Assembly (NCBI RefSeq): GCF_014836935.1
Contig: NZ_JACSPW010000010.1
Span: 1-64,000, forward strand
From: Solibacillus merdavium
GTDB lineage: Bacteria; Bacillota; Bacilli; Bacillales_A; Planococcaceae
Direction: 5' to 3'
DNA: 64,000 nucleotides
Numbering within the stretch: position 1 is the first letter of the stretch; each line of letters begins with the position of its first letter. Under the pieces are notes generated by a model, which was not told the origin of the DNA, searched no databases, and saw only the letters and a list, made by a program, of their open reading frames with translations. This document shows positions 48,601-54,788 of the stretch, piece by piece. A program made the position numbers and the translations under genes.

Positions 48601-48648
48601 AAGGGTGCTGTCCGAAATGAACTTCCGGACAGCACCTTTTGTTTTTAA
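48601..48648. terminator. bidirectional terminator
   Basis: AAGGTGCTGTCCG-type arms (GGTGCTGTCCG/CGGACAGCACC) with TTTTG tail, between convergent exporter genes. Confidence 0.88.
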
Positions 48649-50381
48649 GAAGTTAAAGAACCTGATTGTAATCGATACATCAATTCATATTTACCGCCGA
48701 GTGCAACAAGCTCATCATGGCTTCCTTGCTCGACAATTTCCCCACGATCTAATACTAAAATTTTATCTGCATTTTTAATAGTAGAAAGGCGGTGTGCAAT
48801 GATGAACGTAGTCCGTCCCTTTTTTAGTACATCCATCGCATGCTGGATAATCTCTTCTGTTTCAGAGTCAATATTAGATGTTGCTTCATCCAAAATCAAA
48901 ATGGCTGGGTCAAATGCTAGTGCCCGTGCAAATGAGATTAATTGGCGTTGACCAGATGAAAGGGTACTTCCTTTTTCGATTACTGGTTCATCAATTCCTT
49001 TTTCAAATTTTGATAAAACACGGTCACCACCAACCGCCTCCAGTGCATTTTCTACCATCTCTCGTGAGATACGCGCATCATTCAAGCTAACATTTGATGC
49101 AATCGTTCCTGTAAATAAATACGGGTCCTGTAATACGATACCCATATGCTCACGAATTGCTTGGCGAGGCAGCTTTGTAATATCCTGCCCATCAATGATA
49201 ATACGTCCTTTTTGTGGGTCATAGAAGCGGAATAATAAATTCATTATTGAGCTTTTTCCTGAGCCTGTATGACCAACAAGTGCAATTGTTTCGCCTTCCT
49301 TTGCTTCAAAGTGAATATTTTTCAATACATACTCGTCATTTTTGTATGCAAAAGAAACATGATCAAATACAACATTTCCTTTGTAGCGCTCAATTCTTTC
49401 TTTGCTTACTTCTTCTCCCGGCTGATCAAGTAATTCGAATACACGGGTACCCGCTACAAGTGAACGTTCCAGTTGTGAAAATTGATTGACCAAGTTAGTG
49501 ATCGGATTGAATAGACGCGTAATATAATCAACAAATGCATAAAGTGTACCTGCTGAAACTGCTTCGGGCAATGTCATCGATTGTGTACCGAAGTAATAAA
49601 CGAATACAGCGAACATACCAAGTCGTAAAATATTTACTAAGTTATGTGAAGTCGCAGAATCCAACAATAAAAGCTTACGGTTGTATTGGTAATGCTCATC
49701 GTTCATCTCATCAAATTCAAGTCTCATCTGATCTTCACGGCGGAAAGCCTGAATAATTGTCATTCCATTAATCGATTCGTTAATCATCGCATTAATATCG
49801 GAAATTTTTGTACGAATAACATGATTGTATTGTGAAGCGAATTTTCGGTATAAAATCATCCAAATATAGACGATTGGAATGAGTACTAGGGCAAAAAGCG
49901 CCATTTTCCAATTTAAAATAAATAAAGCTATATATACCCCTGCAATGGTAATAAAGCTGTTCGCAAATTGCGAAAGTACGGTTACGTAAAGGTTTCGAAT
50001 AGCCTCTGTATCATTTGTAACACGGGCAACTACTTTACCGGCCGGCAAGTTATCAAAGTATTCAATTGGTAGCTTTTGAATATGCCCGAACACATCTTTC
50101 CGTAGCTGTTGGATGACAAAGTTTGCACCCCGCTGTAAAAAGATGAACATTAAATAACGGAATACAGCAGTCAGTACGGATAACAAGAAGAAAATCGATA
50201 ATAAAATCGCAATTGGCTCTGCCTGTAAATTACCTGGTTCCATGTAATGGTCGATAATATATTTTGCGATAAACGGACCTGCAATATCCGTTGCAACAGC
50301 AATTGTTAATAAGGATAATCCGATTAAAATCGGCTTTTTAAATTTTAAAGCATAAAGATACAGTCGTTTAGATGTACTCAT
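48645..50381 (-). CDS. heterodimeric ABC exporter, second subunit (BmrD/YfiC-like)
   Basis: 578 aa: six transmembrane helices (about 18-310) and an ATPase domain (about 335-575). Walker A VGHTGSGKSS and Walker B LILDEATSNIDSETE are canonical with the catalytic Glu. The signature motif is LSSGQ rather than LSGGQ. Overlaps the preceding subunit gene by 4 bp (ATGA). Together the two proteins form one asymmetric exporter: this subunit supplies the good Walker B, the partner the good signature. Typical substrates are drugs; the real substrate is unknown. Confidence 0.92.
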   Translation of the reverse strand: MSTSKRLYLYALKFKKPILIGLSLLTIAVATDIAGPFIAKYIIDHYMEPGNLQAEPIAILLSIFFLLSVLTAVFRYLMFIFLQRGANFVIQQLRKDVFGHIQKLPIEYFDNLPAGKVVARVTNDTEAIRNLYVTVLSQFANSFITIAGVYIALFILNWKMALFALVLIPIVYIWMILYRKFASQYNHVIRTKISDINAMINESINGMTIIQAFRREDQMRLEFDEMNDEHYQYNRKLLLLDSATSHNLVNILRLGMFAVFVYYFGTQSMTLPEAVSAGTLYAFVDYITRLFNPITNLVNQFSQLERSLVAGTRVFELLDQPGEEVSKERIERYKGNVVFDHVSFAYKNDEYVLKNIHFEAKEGETIALVGHTGSGKSSIMNLLFRFYDPQKGRIIIDGQDITKLPRQAIREHMGIVLQDPYLFTGTIASNVSLNDARISREMVENALEAVGGDRVLSKFEKGIDEPVIEKGSTLSSGQRQLISFARALAFDPAILILDEATSNIDSETEEIIQHAMDVLKKGRTTFIIAHRLSTIKNADKILVLDRGEIVEQGSHDELVALGGKYELMYRLQSGSLTS

Positions 50382-52120
50382 TGTTTTACCTCCTCAAGCT
50401 GCTGGCGGTCAAATTGCTCTTTGTACCAACCACCTAAGCGTAGAAGCTCTTCATGTGTACCTCGTTCAACAATAAAGCCATCATCCAGTACAATTATTTC
50501 GTCCGCATGCTGAATACCCGACAAGCGGTGGGTTGAAATGATTGTTGTTTTCCCGGAGCGCTCTGTTTGAATATTTTCAATTATTTTTGATTCCGTTTTT
50601 GCATCTACTGCTGATAAAGAATCATCCAGAATTAAGATTTCCGGATCTTTAATAAGTGCACGTGCGATTGATACACGCTGTTTTTGTCCGCCAGATAAAG
50701 ATACTCCTTTTTCTCCGACTAGTGTTTCGATGCCTAGTGGTAAATTAGCTAAGTCTTTTTCAAAGTCTGCTAAGCGAATAGCCTCATCAATATCTGCTGC
50801 TGTCGCATCTTCTTTTCCGAACAATATATTTTCACGAATGGTACGAGAAAATAGTACGTGATCTTGTGGTACATAACCAATCCAGTCTAAAATTTGTTCC
50901 TTCGTCATATGTGCTATATCTGTATTATTAATAATAATTTGCCCATTTCCTAACGGGTACTCTCGTAATAGTTGACGAATGAAGGTTGTTTTTCCGGCAC
51001 CTGTTTTTCCGACAATGCCAAGGGTTTGCCCTTTTTGTAAATTCAATGAAATTTGCTGTAAGTTTTTTACCTGAGATAAAGGGTATTGAAAAGTAAACTC
51101 AGAAAAACCAATTGAATTGGGTACGTTATGTTTCATTGGAGTATTTGGGTTTTTAACATCTGCTTCATACTCTAATGTATCTTGTACACGGTCAAGAGAG
51201 GCACTTCCTTGCTGCATGACGTTAATCAGCTCGCCAATTGCGAACATTGGCCAGATTGCAAGCCCTAAATACACATTAAATGATACGAGCTGACCCACTG
51301 TTAGCGCCTCATTTGATACAAGGACGGCTCCGTAACCAAGCGCGATAACGTAACAGACTCCTGTACCGATTTTTGTTATTGGCATAAAAAGACCATTAAT
51401 ATAGGCAACGCGCATATTTTTTGCAAAGATATTTTCGCTCATCTCTTCAAAGCGTTCTTCGTCTTTACCTTCTTGGACGTAAGCGCGGATAACGCGTGTT
51501 CCTGCAACTGATTCAAGAACATTGTCATTCATTTCACCGAATGCGCCCTGTGCAGTCATATATCTTTCGTGGACAATCTTACCTAAATATTGAATAATGA
51601 TTGCCATAACCGGTATTGGGAGCATCGCAAAGAAAGTTAATTTCCAGGAGATGAAGAAACCCATTGCCAAAATAATAAGCGCCATAAACACCGTCGAATC
51701 AATTAGAGTCATGATTCCAAATCCTGCTGTTAATGTAACGGCATTTAAATCGTTTGTAGCTTTTGCCATTAAGTCCCCTGTACGGTTTTTTTCATAAAAT
51801 GTAGGTGTCATTTGTAAAAATTGATGCATTAATTTTTTCCGCAATATTCGATCAAGCGCAATAGAACCGCCAAATAGTTGGTATTGCCAATAGAAGTTTA
51901 ATCCATAGCTTGCAATCGCAGCAGCCAGAATAAATCCTACATACTTAAGAAGCTGTGCCTGATCCATCTCACCGCTTGTCATAACATCGATGGCTTCACC
52001 TAAAATCCATGGCGGCAATACTTCTATAAAACTTGCAATTATCAATAGTGTTATAGCGATTGTGTACTGCTTACGGTACTGTTTAAAAAACCATTTTAAT
52101 TTAAAAAACACATTAAACAT
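50378..52120 (-). CDS. heterodimeric ABC exporter, first subunit (BmrC/YfiB-like)
   Basis: 580 aa with the same fold. Walker A VGKTGAGKTT and signature LSGGQKQRVSIARAL are canonical, but Walker B is ILILDDSLSAVD, Asp in place of the catalytic Glu. This is the hallmark of the degenerate-site subunit in heterodimeric exporters such as BmrC. ATG behind AGAAGGT. Preceded by a long structured leader with a 32-codon ORF and two terminators on the same strand, so its expression is probably controlled by attenuation. Confidence 0.92.
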   Translation of the reverse strand: MFNVFFKLKWFFKQYRKQYTIAITLLIIASFIEVLPPWILGEAIDVMTSGEMDQAQLLKYVGFILAAAIASYGLNFYWQYQLFGGSIALDRILRKKLMHQFLQMTPTFYEKNRTGDLMAKATNDLNAVTLTAGFGIMTLIDSTVFMALIILAMGFFISWKLTFFAMLPIPVMAIIIQYLGKIVHERYMTAQGAFGEMNDNVLESVAGTRVIRAYVQEGKDEERFEEMSENIFAKNMRVAYINGLFMPITKIGTGVCYVIALGYGAVLVSNEALTVGQLVSFNVYLGLAIWPMFAIGELINVMQQGSASLDRVQDTLEYEADVKNPNTPMKHNVPNSIGFSEFTFQYPLSQVKNLQQISLNLQKGQTLGIVGKTGAGKTTFIRQLLREYPLGNGQIIINNTDIAHMTKEQILDWIGYVPQDHVLFSRTIRENILFGKEDATAADIDEAIRLADFEKDLANLPLGIETLVGEKGVSLSGGQKQRVSIARALIKDPEILILDDSLSAVDAKTESKIIENIQTERSGKTTIISTHRLSGIQHADEIIVLDDGFIVERGTHEELLRLGGWYKEQFDRQQLEEVKQ

Positions 52121-52156
52121 TACTTATACCTTCTTTCTATAAAATTTAAAGCAAGG

Positions 52157-52210
52157 CTACCCATCATCATATCGATCCGTTTTTAATAGTTTTCGCGTAA
52201 AGAATGTCAT
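52157..52210 (-). CDS. 17-codon ORF in exporter leader
   Basis: Starts with ATG directly after a stop codon (TTTAAATGA context) and has a perfect SD (CAGGAGGGC) 7 nt upstream. It reads MTFFTRKLLKTDRYDDG, then TAG, 36 nt before the ABC gene. A translated micro-ORF or a device to keep ribosomes on the leader. Confidence 0.5.
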   Translation of the reverse strand: MTFFTRKLLKTDRYDDG

Positions 52211-52285
52211 TTAAAGCCCTCCTGAATGTTTTTTCACTAAATAGCACTGCTTTTTTGTTTCGATCACTTGTAAGCTCTTATCCAA
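52211..52285 (-). other. 24-codon ORF coupled to the 17-codon ORF
   Basis: A TTG right after the second terminator's T-run opens 24 codons (MDKSLQVIETKKQCYLVKKH...), ending in the TAA that touches the next ATG. No RBS, so translation is doubtful. Confidence 0.25.
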
Positions 52286-52322
52286 CAAAAAAACACCTCT
52301 TTCGATTTTTCGAAAAGGTGTC
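52286..52322 (-). terminator. leader terminator T2
   Basis: On the minus strand ACACCTTTTCG...CGAAAGAGGTGT, 11-bp stem, followed by TTTTTTT. Lies between the exporter promoter and the exporter genes. Confidence 0.85.
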
Positions 52323-52328
52323 ATTACG

Positions 52329-52358
52329 AAAAAAGCACAAGGAAGTCCAAACCCGTGC
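52329..52358 (-). terminator. leader terminator T1
   Basis: On the minus strand GCACGGG, 10-nt loop, CTTGTGC (two G-U pairs), followed by TTTTTT. Starts 3 nt after the stop of the leader peptide. Confidence 0.75.
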
Positions 52359-52361
52359 CCT

Positions 52362-52460
52362 TCATTTAAAAGTGCAAGCTACATCAAAACAAAGGTACGG
52401 AATAGGGGAATATGAAGTTGTCGCTTTTGAAACGTGTACATCTAAAGGTGTTGTCATCAT
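52362..52460 (-). CDS. putative 32-aa leader peptide of ABC exporter
   Basis: ATG ATG start with AAAGGAG 9 nt (and AGGGG 1 nt) upstream. It encodes MMTTPLDVHVSKATTSYSPI followed by PYLCFDVACTFK, and stops just before terminator T1. A consensus promoter lies 45 nt upstream. Size and position match the known B. subtilis case, where translation of the bmrB leader controls bmrCD by ribosome-mediated attenuation. A segment inside the ORF (TTCCCCTATTCC) can pair with the SD region, and its 5' codons share ACACCTTT with the 5' arm of T2. Confidence 0.65.
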   Translation of the reverse strand: MMTTPLDVHVSKATTSYSPIPYLCFDVACTFK

Positions 52461-52505
52461 GCCCCTAATCTCCTTTCCTTGTTCCAATTTATTTAGTGTT
52501 CCTTA

Positions 52506-52534
52506 ATATTATTAGAGCGAATTATCATTGTCAA
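52506..52534 (-). promoter_or_regulatory. exporter operon promoter
   Basis: On the minus strand a perfect TTGACA (52534-52529), 17-nt spacer, TAATAT (52511-52506). Confidence 0.75.
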
Positions 52535-52686
52535 TATATTTTGAAAACAATTTATATTCAGTGTTGGAATTTTGTGGTTTTTTACTATTAGATCGTATAA
52601 AAAACAATTTTATTGTTATAAAAGTTTGAAAATTGAGAGTATATTCGTTATCGTGGAAGTAATACATCAAAAGGAGTGGTACAACG

Positions 52687-53193
52687 ATGAAGAAGCTGTT
52701 TTTTACTTTGTTACTGATATTCGTGCTCGCGGCATGCGGGACGGAAGATACAACAGATATAACAAATAATGTCCCGGGAAATACTACAGATGATGTAACG
52801 CAGGGTAATACAAATGTAGAGGAAAAAAAGATTACTTTATATAAATCTGATGAAAATGCTGAAAATACAGTTCCATATGAAGAAGAGTTTGAAGGTGATG
52901 AAGGAAACCTAGTGCCGTTTATTTTCTCGGAAGTAAATGAGCATGACGTAGAATTATTGGATTATACAGTAGAAAGTGAGAATAAAAGCTTAGTGCTAAA
53001 TTTAGGCGACGATATTTATACTATTCAAGGTTCAGCTGGAGCGAAAATGTTCGTAGAAACATTAGCCCGTTCTTACTTTGAAAATTTACCGGAAATTGAG
53101 GAAATTACATTTATCCATAAGGGCTCGTACGAACCAGCTTTGGATCATATGAATATAGGGCAGCCTTACTTACGAAGTGAATTTGATATGTAG
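52687..53193 (+). CDS. lipoprotein, GerMN-like
   Basis: 168 aa; lipobox LAAC (C17), Thr/Asn-rich linker (about 20-45), then a domain with EKKITLYKSDENAENTVPYE and GAKMFVETLARSYFENLPEI. The order of strands and the helix LARSYF recall a single sporulation/spore-germination GerMN domain, but the match is tentative. RBS AAAGGAGTGG. It sits 17 bp before the amidohydrolase gene and may be co-transcribed. Confidence 0.6.
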   Translation: MKKLFFTLLLIFVLAACGTEDTTDITNNVPGNTTDDVTQGNTNVEEKKITLYKSDENAENTVPYEEEFEGDEGNLVPFIFSEVNEHDVELLDYTVESENKSLVLNLGDDIYTIQGSAGAKMFVETLARSYFENLPEIEEITFIHKGSYEPALDHMNIGQPYLRSEFDM

Positions 53194-53210
53194 ATTGGGG
53201 ATTGTGGGAG

Positions 53211-54788
53211 ATGAAACAACTATGGACAAATGGCACGATTTATACGATGGAACAAGAAGGAAGTACAGTTCAGGCTGTGCTTGTGCATGAAGGGGAAATT
53301 ATAGAAACAGGAGACTTCAATCAATTACGGGAAAAAGCAGATGAAATAATCGATTTACAAGGTGCCTTCATGTATCCCGGCTTTGTCGATAGTCATTTGC
53401 ATATGATTGGGCATGGAGCAAAGTTAATGCGACTGGATTTAACACAGGCCAAGAGTGGAAAGGAACTTCTGGAGCTCGTACAAAATGCTACAAGTCTGCT
53501 TGAAGAAGGGCAATGGTTAATTGGCGATGGCTGGAATGAAAATCAATTTATAGATGTTCAAATTCCGACAATAGAAGAACTTGATGCCGTAACTGATAGA
53601 CCTATATATCTTAATCGTGTTTGTCATCATGTTGCACTCGTAAATTCAGCGGCGTTTCAATTAGCAGGTATAACAAATGACACGCCAGATCCAGAAGGTG
53701 GAAAATTGGGCCGTCATAAAAATGGGGAACTGAATGGCTTACTGTATGAGCAAGCTATGAATTTGGTGTCGTCTATTTTCCAGCAAGAAGGAGAAAGCTA
53801 TATTGATAGTTTGCAGCACTATCTGCAATTGGGCATTGAACATATGCAATCATATGGATTAACGGGTGGTCATACGGAGGAAATGGGTTATTTTGGGCAT
53901 TACATTAATCCGTTAACAGCCTATCAACGTACAGTTGGGGATAAAAAGCATTTCCGTGTCAATCTATTGCGTCATCATACAGTCTTTGAAGAAATGATTA
54001 AAAATAATGCACCATATGATGAACCGTTTATCGAGCCCGGTGCGATGAAGATTTTTGCCGATGGCTCATTTGGAGGCTCCACTGCTGCGTTATTGGAGCC
54101 ATATGCAAATGAGTTGGATAATAAAGGTATGCTTATTCATACAGATGAACAAATGGAAGCCCTCATTCAATTAGCAAGAAAATACGATGAAGCAGTCGCC
54201 ATCCATATTATCGGGGATGGTAGTATGGAACAAGTATTGACGTATTTAGAGAAATATCCTGTTAATAAAGGAAAGCGAGATCGCCTCATTCATTGCTGTC
54301 TCGTATCTGAAGAGCAGCTGGCAAGAATAAAAAAGCTGTCTGTTATTTTAGATTTACAGCCTGCTTTTGTCACGTCTGACTTCCCATGGATACGTGAAAA
54401 GCTGGGAGAAAATCGTTCCGGTCATATATATGCTTGGAAGACTTTTGTAGAAGCAGGTTTAATGTGCGCGGCAGGAACAGATGCGCCGATAGAAGCGATT
54501 AGTCCATTTGAAACAATTTACGCTGCAGTAGAACGCAAAAAGCCTCACGATACGCATGACGGATATGGAGCTGCACAAAAGCTATCTCGTTTTGAAGCAG
54601 TCAAAATGTATACGGTTGGAAGTGCGGAGGCCATTTGTAAAGAAAATGAGCGTGGTTACATCCGGCCGGGATACGATGCAGACTTTACAATACTCGATAA
54701 AGATCTATTACATTGCACTGCCGAAGAAATATTGCAAACTACTGCATTAAAAACAGTTGTTGCAGGTAATGTTGTATATAAAAAGTAA
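53211..54788 (+). CDS. amidohydrolase family 3 protein (YtcJ-like)
   Basis: About 525 aa. Metal-binding start of the barrel is GFVDSHLHMIGHG (about 63-75). Further motifs are GDGWNENQF, FADGSFGGSTAALL, VAIHIIGDGSMEQVL (barrel His) and CAAGTDAPIEAISPF (late barrel Asp). The C-terminus returns to the beta-sandwich (RPGYDADFTILDKD). Family members are N-substituted formamide deformylase-like or exoenzyme-regulatory YtcJ proteins; substrate unknown. The ATG at 53211 is used with TGGGGAT 9 nt upstream; a TTG at 53202 is possible. Confidence 0.88.
   Translation: MKQLWTNGTIYTMEQEGSTVQAVLVHEGEIIETGDFNQLREKADEIIDLQGAFMYPGFVDSHLHMIGHGAKLMRLDLTQAKSGKELLELVQNATSLLEEGQWLIGDGWNENQFIDVQIPTIEELDAVTDRPIYLNRVCHHVALVNSAAFQLAGITNDTPDPEGGKLGRHKNGELNGLLYEQAMNLVSSIFQQEGESYIDSLQHYLQLGIEHMQSYGLTGGHTEEMGYFGHYINPLTAYQRTVGDKKHFRVNLLRHHTVFEEMIKNNAPYDEPFIEPGAMKIFADGSFGGSTAALLEPYANELDNKGMLIHTDEQMEALIQLARKYDEAVAIHIIGDGSMEQVLTYLEKYPVNKGKRDRLIHCCLVSEEQLARIKKLSVILDLQPAFVTSDFPWIREKLGENRSGHIYAWKTFVEAGLMCAAGTDAPIEAISPFETIYAAVERKKPHDTHDGYGAAQKLSRFEAVKMYTVGSAEAICKENERGYIRPGYDADFTILDKDLLHCTAEEILQTTALKTVVAGNVVYKK

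Follow-up and report, generated by a model that had tools for sequence, protein, structure and literature searches.

The leader in front of the exporter genes on this contig of Solibacillus merdavium is, with a probability that we put at about 70%, the Solibacillus version of the bmrBCD leader, that is, a ribosome-mediated transcription attenuator of a multidrug exporter with two translated leader open reading frames (ORFs), uORF1 and uORF2, which would follow different logics. On the minus strand of the window, by which we mean the whole stretch of 64,000 nucleotides that was analysed, a promoter is followed by uORF1, two hairpins with T-runs (T1 and T2), uORF2 and the ATG of a bmrC-like gene at 52120. 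The whole arrangement, including both uORFs, is kept in 16/16 genomes of Solibacillus and, in looser form, elsewhere in Bacillales.

In the proposed mechanism, uORF1 would be the sensor, with its Shine-Dalgarno (SD) motif and start region (segment 1) pairing with codons farther along the same ORF (segment 2). If no ribosome is present, or if it moves fast, T1 and T2 would form and the transcript would stop before uORF2. A 50S inhibitor that holds a ribosome near the start of uORF1 would leave segment 1 covered and segment 2 free, and the freed segment 2 would disturb the first hairpin, so that RNA polymerase reads through. In the read-through transcript, uORF2 would be translated, and its C-terminal peptide and stop codon would act afterwards, most likely on termination or recycling shortly before the bmrC start, which would set the translation of bmrC or the stability of the mRNA.

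Layout of the leader and the exporter genes

The promoter is of the sigma-A type (52506-52534, minus strand), with TTGACA at 52534-52529, a spacer of 17 nt and TAATAT at 52511-52506, and TTGACA recurs at the same distance in 16/16 Solibacillus leaders. uORF1 (52362-52460, minus strand; MMTTPLDVHVSKATTSYSPIPYLCFDVACTFK) comprises 32 codons between an ATG at 52460 and a TGA at 52362, and its SD motif AAGGAG lies at 52475-52470. T1 (52329-52359, minus strand), formed by the hairpin 52359-52334 and a T-run, begins 2-3 nt past the uORF1 stop and is weak in the window; T2 (52286-52322, minus strand), with the hairpin 52322-52292 and its T-run, is a strong intrinsic terminator. uORF2 (52157-52210, minus strand; MTFFTRKLLKTDRYDDG-TAG) has 17 codons between an ATG at 52210 and the TAG at 52157, and an SD motif AGGAGG at 52223-52218. 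A preliminary description of this DNA had already pointed out the consensus promoter, the 32-codon frame with its good SD, the terminator 3 nt behind its stop, the second and stronger terminator, and the 17-codon micro-ORF with its perfect SD; these elements are confirmed here, and the interpretation given to them is partly supported.

By count, promoter-like matches in the window are at chance level (7 against 6.9 expected), and a simple terminator scan of the window found none (1.1 expected), listing neither T1 nor T2 because the loop of T1 is long and T2 is bulged. The promoter, T1 and T2 are thus rated above chance because they are conserved, not because of such counts. The Rfam 15 models gave no match to window positions 52090-52560 up to E=1. 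On the plus strand, divergent from the leader, the region 52687-54788 contains a 168-aa lipoprotein-like ORF, which has no NCBIfam match, and an amidohydrolase-like ORF, both labels being readings of the sequence.

The exporter genes encode proteins of 580 aa (50378-52120, minus strand) and 578 aa (48645-50381, minus strand), whose closest counterparts of solved structure are B. subtilis YheI (BmrC) and YheH (BmrD), respectively, in keeping with the earlier proposal of a heterodimeric bmrCD-type exporter. The identity of the window BmrC with that of B. subtilis is 56% (a 204-aa fragment was searched), all 16 Solibacillus genomes have a bmrC ortholog with at least 86% identity, and a 98% identical BmrC is found on a contig of S. 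faecavium. The window BmrD ortholog is without the roughly 100-aa insertion that is present near the N-terminus of B. subtilis BmrD.

With bmrC and bmrD orthologs downstream, the leader is best read as an ortholog of the known bmrBCD attenuator and not as a parallel invention, so that the "parallel or divergent version" of the preliminary description is given up. The B. subtilis operon (yheJ-yheI-yheH; Reilman et al. 2014, PMC4191407), described by its authors as the first case of a multidrug ABC transporter regulated by attenuation through a leader peptide, shares with the window the exporter orthologs and the order of elements, from the promoter through a short leader ORF to an intrinsic terminator; an ATG-started uORF1 with its SD helix and a uORF2 are also present in the B. 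subtilis-type locus L141. In B. subtilis, translation of the leader is required, ErmC methylation abolishes the response to lincomycin, mutations that block the terminator lead to high uninduced expression, and an AbrB-controlled, growth-phase-dependent promoter has been reported (PMC4191407). Translation rates have been monitored with a bmrC-GFP reporter (PMC8670375). By orthology, the leader in the window would be expected to be induced by antibiotics as well.

The comparative analysis covered 150 distinct loci, made up of 80 named loci less two duplicates, 30 class-level loci, 26 loci of the genus Bacillus and 16 of Solibacillus; L001, L031 and L032 were dropped as duplicates of the window, L002 and L011, respectively. 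It should be noted that the loci are not independent, some of those from Planococcus being nearly identical.

uORF1, its SD helix and the terminators

The preliminary description had noted that TTCCCCTATTCC, within uORF1, faces the SD motif of the same ORF. This pairing, between segment 1 (52452-52475, minus strand) and the codons of the SYSPIPYL stretch (segment 2, 52392-52417, minus strand) as anti-SD, is not significant in the window taken alone (p=0.11 against dinucleotide shuffles; 0.07 in the genus test), but it is borne out by comparison across loci. Among the 16 Solibacillus leaders, in which segment 2 corresponds to an SYxP stretch, cognate pairs of the two segments have a mean energy of -15.6 kcal/mol, against -12.9 kcal/mol for non-cognate and -9.5 kcal/mol for shuffled pairs: the pairing of the uORF1 SD is maintained by compensation within the genus.

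The same holds family-wide. A uORF1 candidate, defined as an ATG-started ORF of 16-36 codons whose SD has 5 or more matches and whose stop lies 140 nt or more upstream of bmrC, was found in 135 of the 150 loci and in none of the remaining 15. Pairing of its SD region with its own codons from +22 onwards was significant (p ≤ 0.05) in 106/135 loci, with a mean of -18.0 kcal/mol against -10.8 kcal/mol in dinucleotide shuffles. Like tests on the SD of bmrC and of uORF2, in which the partners were 41 and 60 nt long and 60 shuffles were drawn, were significant in just 2% of 135 and 5% of 125 loci, respectively. Four loci that pull the count of 106 down were retained among the 135: L108, L149 and L150, the last two of which had an internal start picked by the rule, and L160, in which the frame picked differs from that listed.

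The peptide, in turn, drifts. In the nearest relative of the window (L002), a one-base deletion shifts the frame of uORF1, so that the second half of the peptide differs and the SD helix stays, a hint that the switch does not depend critically on the uORF1 peptide. A peptide that is not conserved while the stems are had been named beforehand as an observation that would speak against a leader-peptide attenuator, and this is in part what was found for uORF1; drift of the peptide with retention of the helix and the stems fits a switch that senses a ribosome near the start codon. The SD helix likewise suggests that the sensor reads a ribosome near the start of uORF1, as in the short ABC-F uORFs, for which a stall right after initiation is assumed (PMC10201436). 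An SD motif that would pair with later codons of its own ORF while the peptide drifts looks new. In five loci (L072, L078, L084, L092 and L095), uORF1 lies about 100-200 nt farther upstream than usual; the extra sequence seems to have been inserted between the terminators and uORF2, and L084 has an additional strong hairpin upstream of uORF2.

T1 and T2 differ in strength, as had been claimed: the hairpin energies in the window are -7.8 kcal/mol for T1 and -13.6 kcal/mol for T2. Within Solibacillus, the arms pair with mean energies of -16.4 kcal/mol (T1; -7.1 shuffled) and -15.7 kcal/mol (T2; -4.8 shuffled), and a hairpin with a T-run is present at the T2 place in 16/16 and at the T1 place in 15/16 genomes (missed in L003). 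Terminator-type hairpins between uORF1 and uORF2 were found in 131/135 loci, two or more of them in 79: one in 52 loci, two in 68, three in 11 and none in four. Thus, the two terminators are present as described, but their number is not a fixed property of the leader, and T1 has an equilibrium probability of just 0.03 in the window. In L102, L104, L107 and L155-L164, one to three such hairpins are lined up between the uORFs, and this variable number indicates quick change between lineages.

In the loci with a T2 among 17 folded to the T2 end, T2 has an equilibrium probability of 0.83-0.98 without a ribosome, so that equilibrium folding cannot reveal attenuation. When a ribosome was mimicked by masking at codons 2 and 4, the predicted sequestration of the 5' arm of the first hairpin rose from 0.44 to 0.62 (n=131). 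The same masking on shuffled arms gave a nearly equal rise (0.17 against 0.14, p=0.54), and masked folding was therefore dropped as support for antitermination. Direct pairing of uORF1 codons with the 5' arm of the first hairpin was significant in 25% of 131 loci, with p=0.56 in the window, and that with the second hairpin in 3% of 79. The preliminary description was right that uORF1 codons 3-6 and the 5' arm of T2 have ACACCTTT in common; the pairing of the 3' arm of T2 with codons 1-8 that it drew from this is good in 7/16 Solibacillus leaders (the window, L002-L006 and L016) and at chance level in 9/16, and is not upheld as a general feature. Among ten region tests across the family, the highest value was reached by the 3' arm of T2 with the 5' UTR, SD and codons 1-7 (17% of 78 loci at p ≤ 0.05), which is a weak enrichment. 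Two further candidates were rejected: a cascade in which the loop and 3' arm of T1 capture the 5' arm of T2 (p ≤ 0.05 in 10% of 78 loci), and pairing between the 5' arms of T1 and T2, which was no better than shuffles in Solibacillus. Region, masking and arm tests together demonstrated no conserved antiterminator pairing.

uORF1 also bears on the annotation in B. subtilis. There, bmrB is described as a 162-bp gene with a GTG start that ends 119 bp before bmrC, that is, as one leader of 53 codons with the terminator inside it (PMC4191407); PMC7828314 lists a BmrB of 54 residues; PMC5821984 and PMC8670375 also refer to BmrB, and PMC9226507 to a uORF. The leader in the window, unlike the published one, has a uORF1 that ends before two T-run hairpins, and an extra conserved uORF2. 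L141, with a BmrC fragment that matches YheI at 100% identity, contains the published bmrB frame exactly, overlapped by an ATG-started frame of 23 codons (MPRNLRVYQTVSYWRGKPFVLFS) with the SD AAGGAGG and an SD helix of -24.8 kcal/mol (-11.8 in shuffles). Across 11 loci of the B. subtilis group, defined by a uORF1 beginning with MPRN or MPKN, the ATG frame (23-32 codons) is intact in 11/11. The bmrB frame has its GTG and at least 50 codons in 5/11 and is broken in 6/11, the GTG being lost in four (GTA, GTC, TGT and TGT) and the frame cut to 27 or 16 codons in two. Left out of this group were L112, L151 and L152, which have a BmrC fragment with 86-88% identity and a different uORF1; L152, the one of the three that was read in the bmrB frame, has no such frame.

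That attenuation works exactly as published, with a single long bmrB ORF that extends into the terminator and whose translation is slowed throughout, and with uORF1 and uORF2 as incidental frames, appears quite improbable in view of these broken frames, and the uORF1 of the window, which stops before T1, could not enter it. A plasmid-overexpressed GFP fusion in the bmrB frame did fluoresce, and rare codons in this frame affected basal read-through, both as expected for a translated bmrB; however, a chromosomal in-frame bmrB-GFP fusion gave no fluorescence (PMC4191407). The knockout of the bmrB start also altered other starts and possible ribosome-binding sites (RBSs) in the 5' UTR (PMC4191407), and for this reason the knockout and fusion data cannot separate the bmrB frame from the ATG frame. 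Judged from frame conservation, the true leader is probably the ATG frame, and bmrB was probably mis-framed. Since the frame annotated in B. subtilis is in doubt, a terminator inside the leader may not be a defining feature of the bmrBCD family.

uORF2 and the start of bmrC

A uORF2-type ORF is located just upstream of bmrC in 128/150 loci, B. subtilis included, under a rule that demands 12-30 codons, an SD with at least 4 matches, a stop 10-70 nt before bmrC and a C-terminus [DE][GSDCA][GDE]-stop, the C-terminal pattern thus being itself a criterion. The stops observed lie 16-44 nt before the bmrC start. Additional to the 128, L046 and L065 are off the pattern by one residue. uORF2 is missing in 17/30 class-level loci, in L036 and L083 and, by the rule, in L102, which was counted as lacking because its uORF2-like ORF (ending LDGG) lies 76 nt before the start used; it is also missing from all 14 paralogous exporter loci of Solibacillus (0/14). 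It occurs in six families by handle (f1, f14, f33, f38, f57 and f58). In B. subtilis, uORF2 (VKTNTEARAVRAKLDEKSCKEKIEGG) has a GTG start and ends 17 nt before bmrC, its last residues being CKEKIEGG in L141. A wider C-terminal pattern gave 91 matches in 78/261 family genomes and 2 control matches; 75 of the 91 sit 28-44 nt before bmrC and 16 elsewhere, by coordinates. With a related pattern, 27 matches in 27/44 genomes of the genus Bacillus were obtained (4 control matches), of which 26 lie directly before bmrC by coordinate comparison.

The C-terminus of uORF2 is under amino-acid-level selection. Over its last eight codons, pN/pS amounts to 0.08 in Psychrobacillus, 0.10 in the Planococcus group, 0.12 in Sporosarcina, 0.12 in a group that we take to be B. 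licheniformis-like and 0.22 in the B. subtilis group; it is 0.37 in Neobacillus/Cytobacillus, 0.54 in Solibacillus and 0.58 in Lysinibacillus. Selection is clear in five of the eight groups and weak in Solibacillus and Lysinibacillus. A serine codon switch (TCT/AGT) occurs in L050, and the N-terminus drifts between loci. The stop codon is TAG in 101/128 uORF2 loci against 9/49 window ORFs of at least 150 aa, a comparison that ignores kinship and is not leaned on here.

Three other roles of uORF2 have to be weighed. It might be a translation booster only, with an SD that loads ribosomes for re-initiation at bmrC and a peptide without relevance. The good SD and the short distance from the stop to bmrC would suit this, as would the folding of the uORF2-bmrC region, which is weaker than shuffles in 9/14 loci and about equal in four, and re-initiation at leader ORFs is already a published idea (PMC4833913). 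Nevertheless, mere loading would require neither the conservation, amid synonymous variation, of the C-terminal residues in six families by handle, nor the recurrence of the motif before an unrelated operon (see below), and we regard the booster as unlikely, though as the strongest of the competing roles. Alternatively, uORF2 might encode a free peptide acting in trans, for example, a regulator of the transporter or an exported signal. Selection on the C-terminus and the constant place beside the exporter in the 128 loci would agree with a free peptide, but the position fixed immediately before the bmrC RBS, the drifting N-terminus and the second operon, which has no exporter after its leader within the stretches read, make it improbable.

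The third role, translational attenuation of the ErmC/ErmB type, in which uORF2 would control a hairpin that hides the bmrC RBS, has a precedent for two leaders in ermB (PMC8274638). However, no such hairpin was seen in any of 14 loci, each folded from a point upstream of uORF2 to within bmrC: in 13/14 the region has z values of -0.1 to +1.9 against mononucleotide shuffles, and only B. subtilis lies below (-1.25). An RBS that is not hidden speaks against classical translational attenuation, which we consider very improbable here.

An action of the uORF2 peptide and stop codon on termination or recycling would not be needed for induction as such, at least in B. subtilis: a complete bmrB-gfp with its own RBS still more than doubled with lincomycin (PMC4191407), and since such reporters, apparently without the uORF2 region, were still induced, uORF2 is dispensable for basic induction in that species.

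A second operon, related systems and implications

The pattern KESLE[SG]G-TAG gave 62 matches in 51/261 family genomes and none in the reversed control. Of the 16 matches of the wider pattern away from bmrC, 13 are second matches in genomes that also match at bmrC, and one, in G208, precedes a bmrC-like frame of 317 aa. Eleven of the 13 loci were fetched (G150 and G154 were not), and G085 and G224 were set aside. The 11 loci (L167-L177) come from Psychrobacillus- and Sporosarcina-type genomes, by name or coordinates. Each of the 11 has a uORF1 with an SD helix (p ≤ 0.04) and a uORF2, and T-run hairpins between the two were read by eye, the stretch of L176 beginning past the first one. Behind the leader follow two small ORFs, one of about 40 aa in 10/11 loci (by an SD rule; one has 31 aa) and one of 52-65 aa in 11/11. 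Neither protein has a family in Pfam or NCBIfam, in which the longer one has two matches far below the cut-off. The operon is possibly induced by antibiotics.

Among known systems, vmlR, cplR and other ARE-ABCF attenuators also have a uORF that is stalled by ribosome inhibitors, and in cplR a 5' hairpin hides the uORF and a terminator precedes the resistance gene (PMC9226507, PMC10201436). Their uORFs have three or four codons, against 16-36 here (by our own selection rule), and, unlike in these systems, the anti-SD lies inside the ORF and a second uORF follows the terminators. The ermB gene is preceded by two leaders, ermBL and ermBL2, as is the exporter here, but its control is presented as translational attenuation (PMC8274638), whereas in the bmrBCD leader the second ORF lies behind terminators and beside an open RBS. 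The attenuator of the exporter is thus known, and the SD helix with the ORF's own codons, the ATG frame in place of bmrB, and uORF2 look new. The available part of PMC4191407 does not mention uORF2, and the literature consulted contains no mention of the overlapping ATG frame, uORF2 or the second operon; earlier notice, for example, in the term-seq study of Dar 2016, is possible.

A more far-reaching reading, which we hold tentatively and at somewhat less than even odds, is that Bacillales possess a portable two-leader module in which uORF1 would sense stalling and uORF2 would be a peptide-dependent checkpoint that slows or steers termination, that the bmrB frame is wrong and the true pair was missed, and that the module also drives the operon of two small proteins. 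An incorrect bmrB frame would mean that the model of sensing and the experiments on codons have to be reinterpreted. If uORF2 is a peptide-dependent checkpoint, it would represent a new arrest or termination peptide, found in six families by handle and in front of two unrelated operons.
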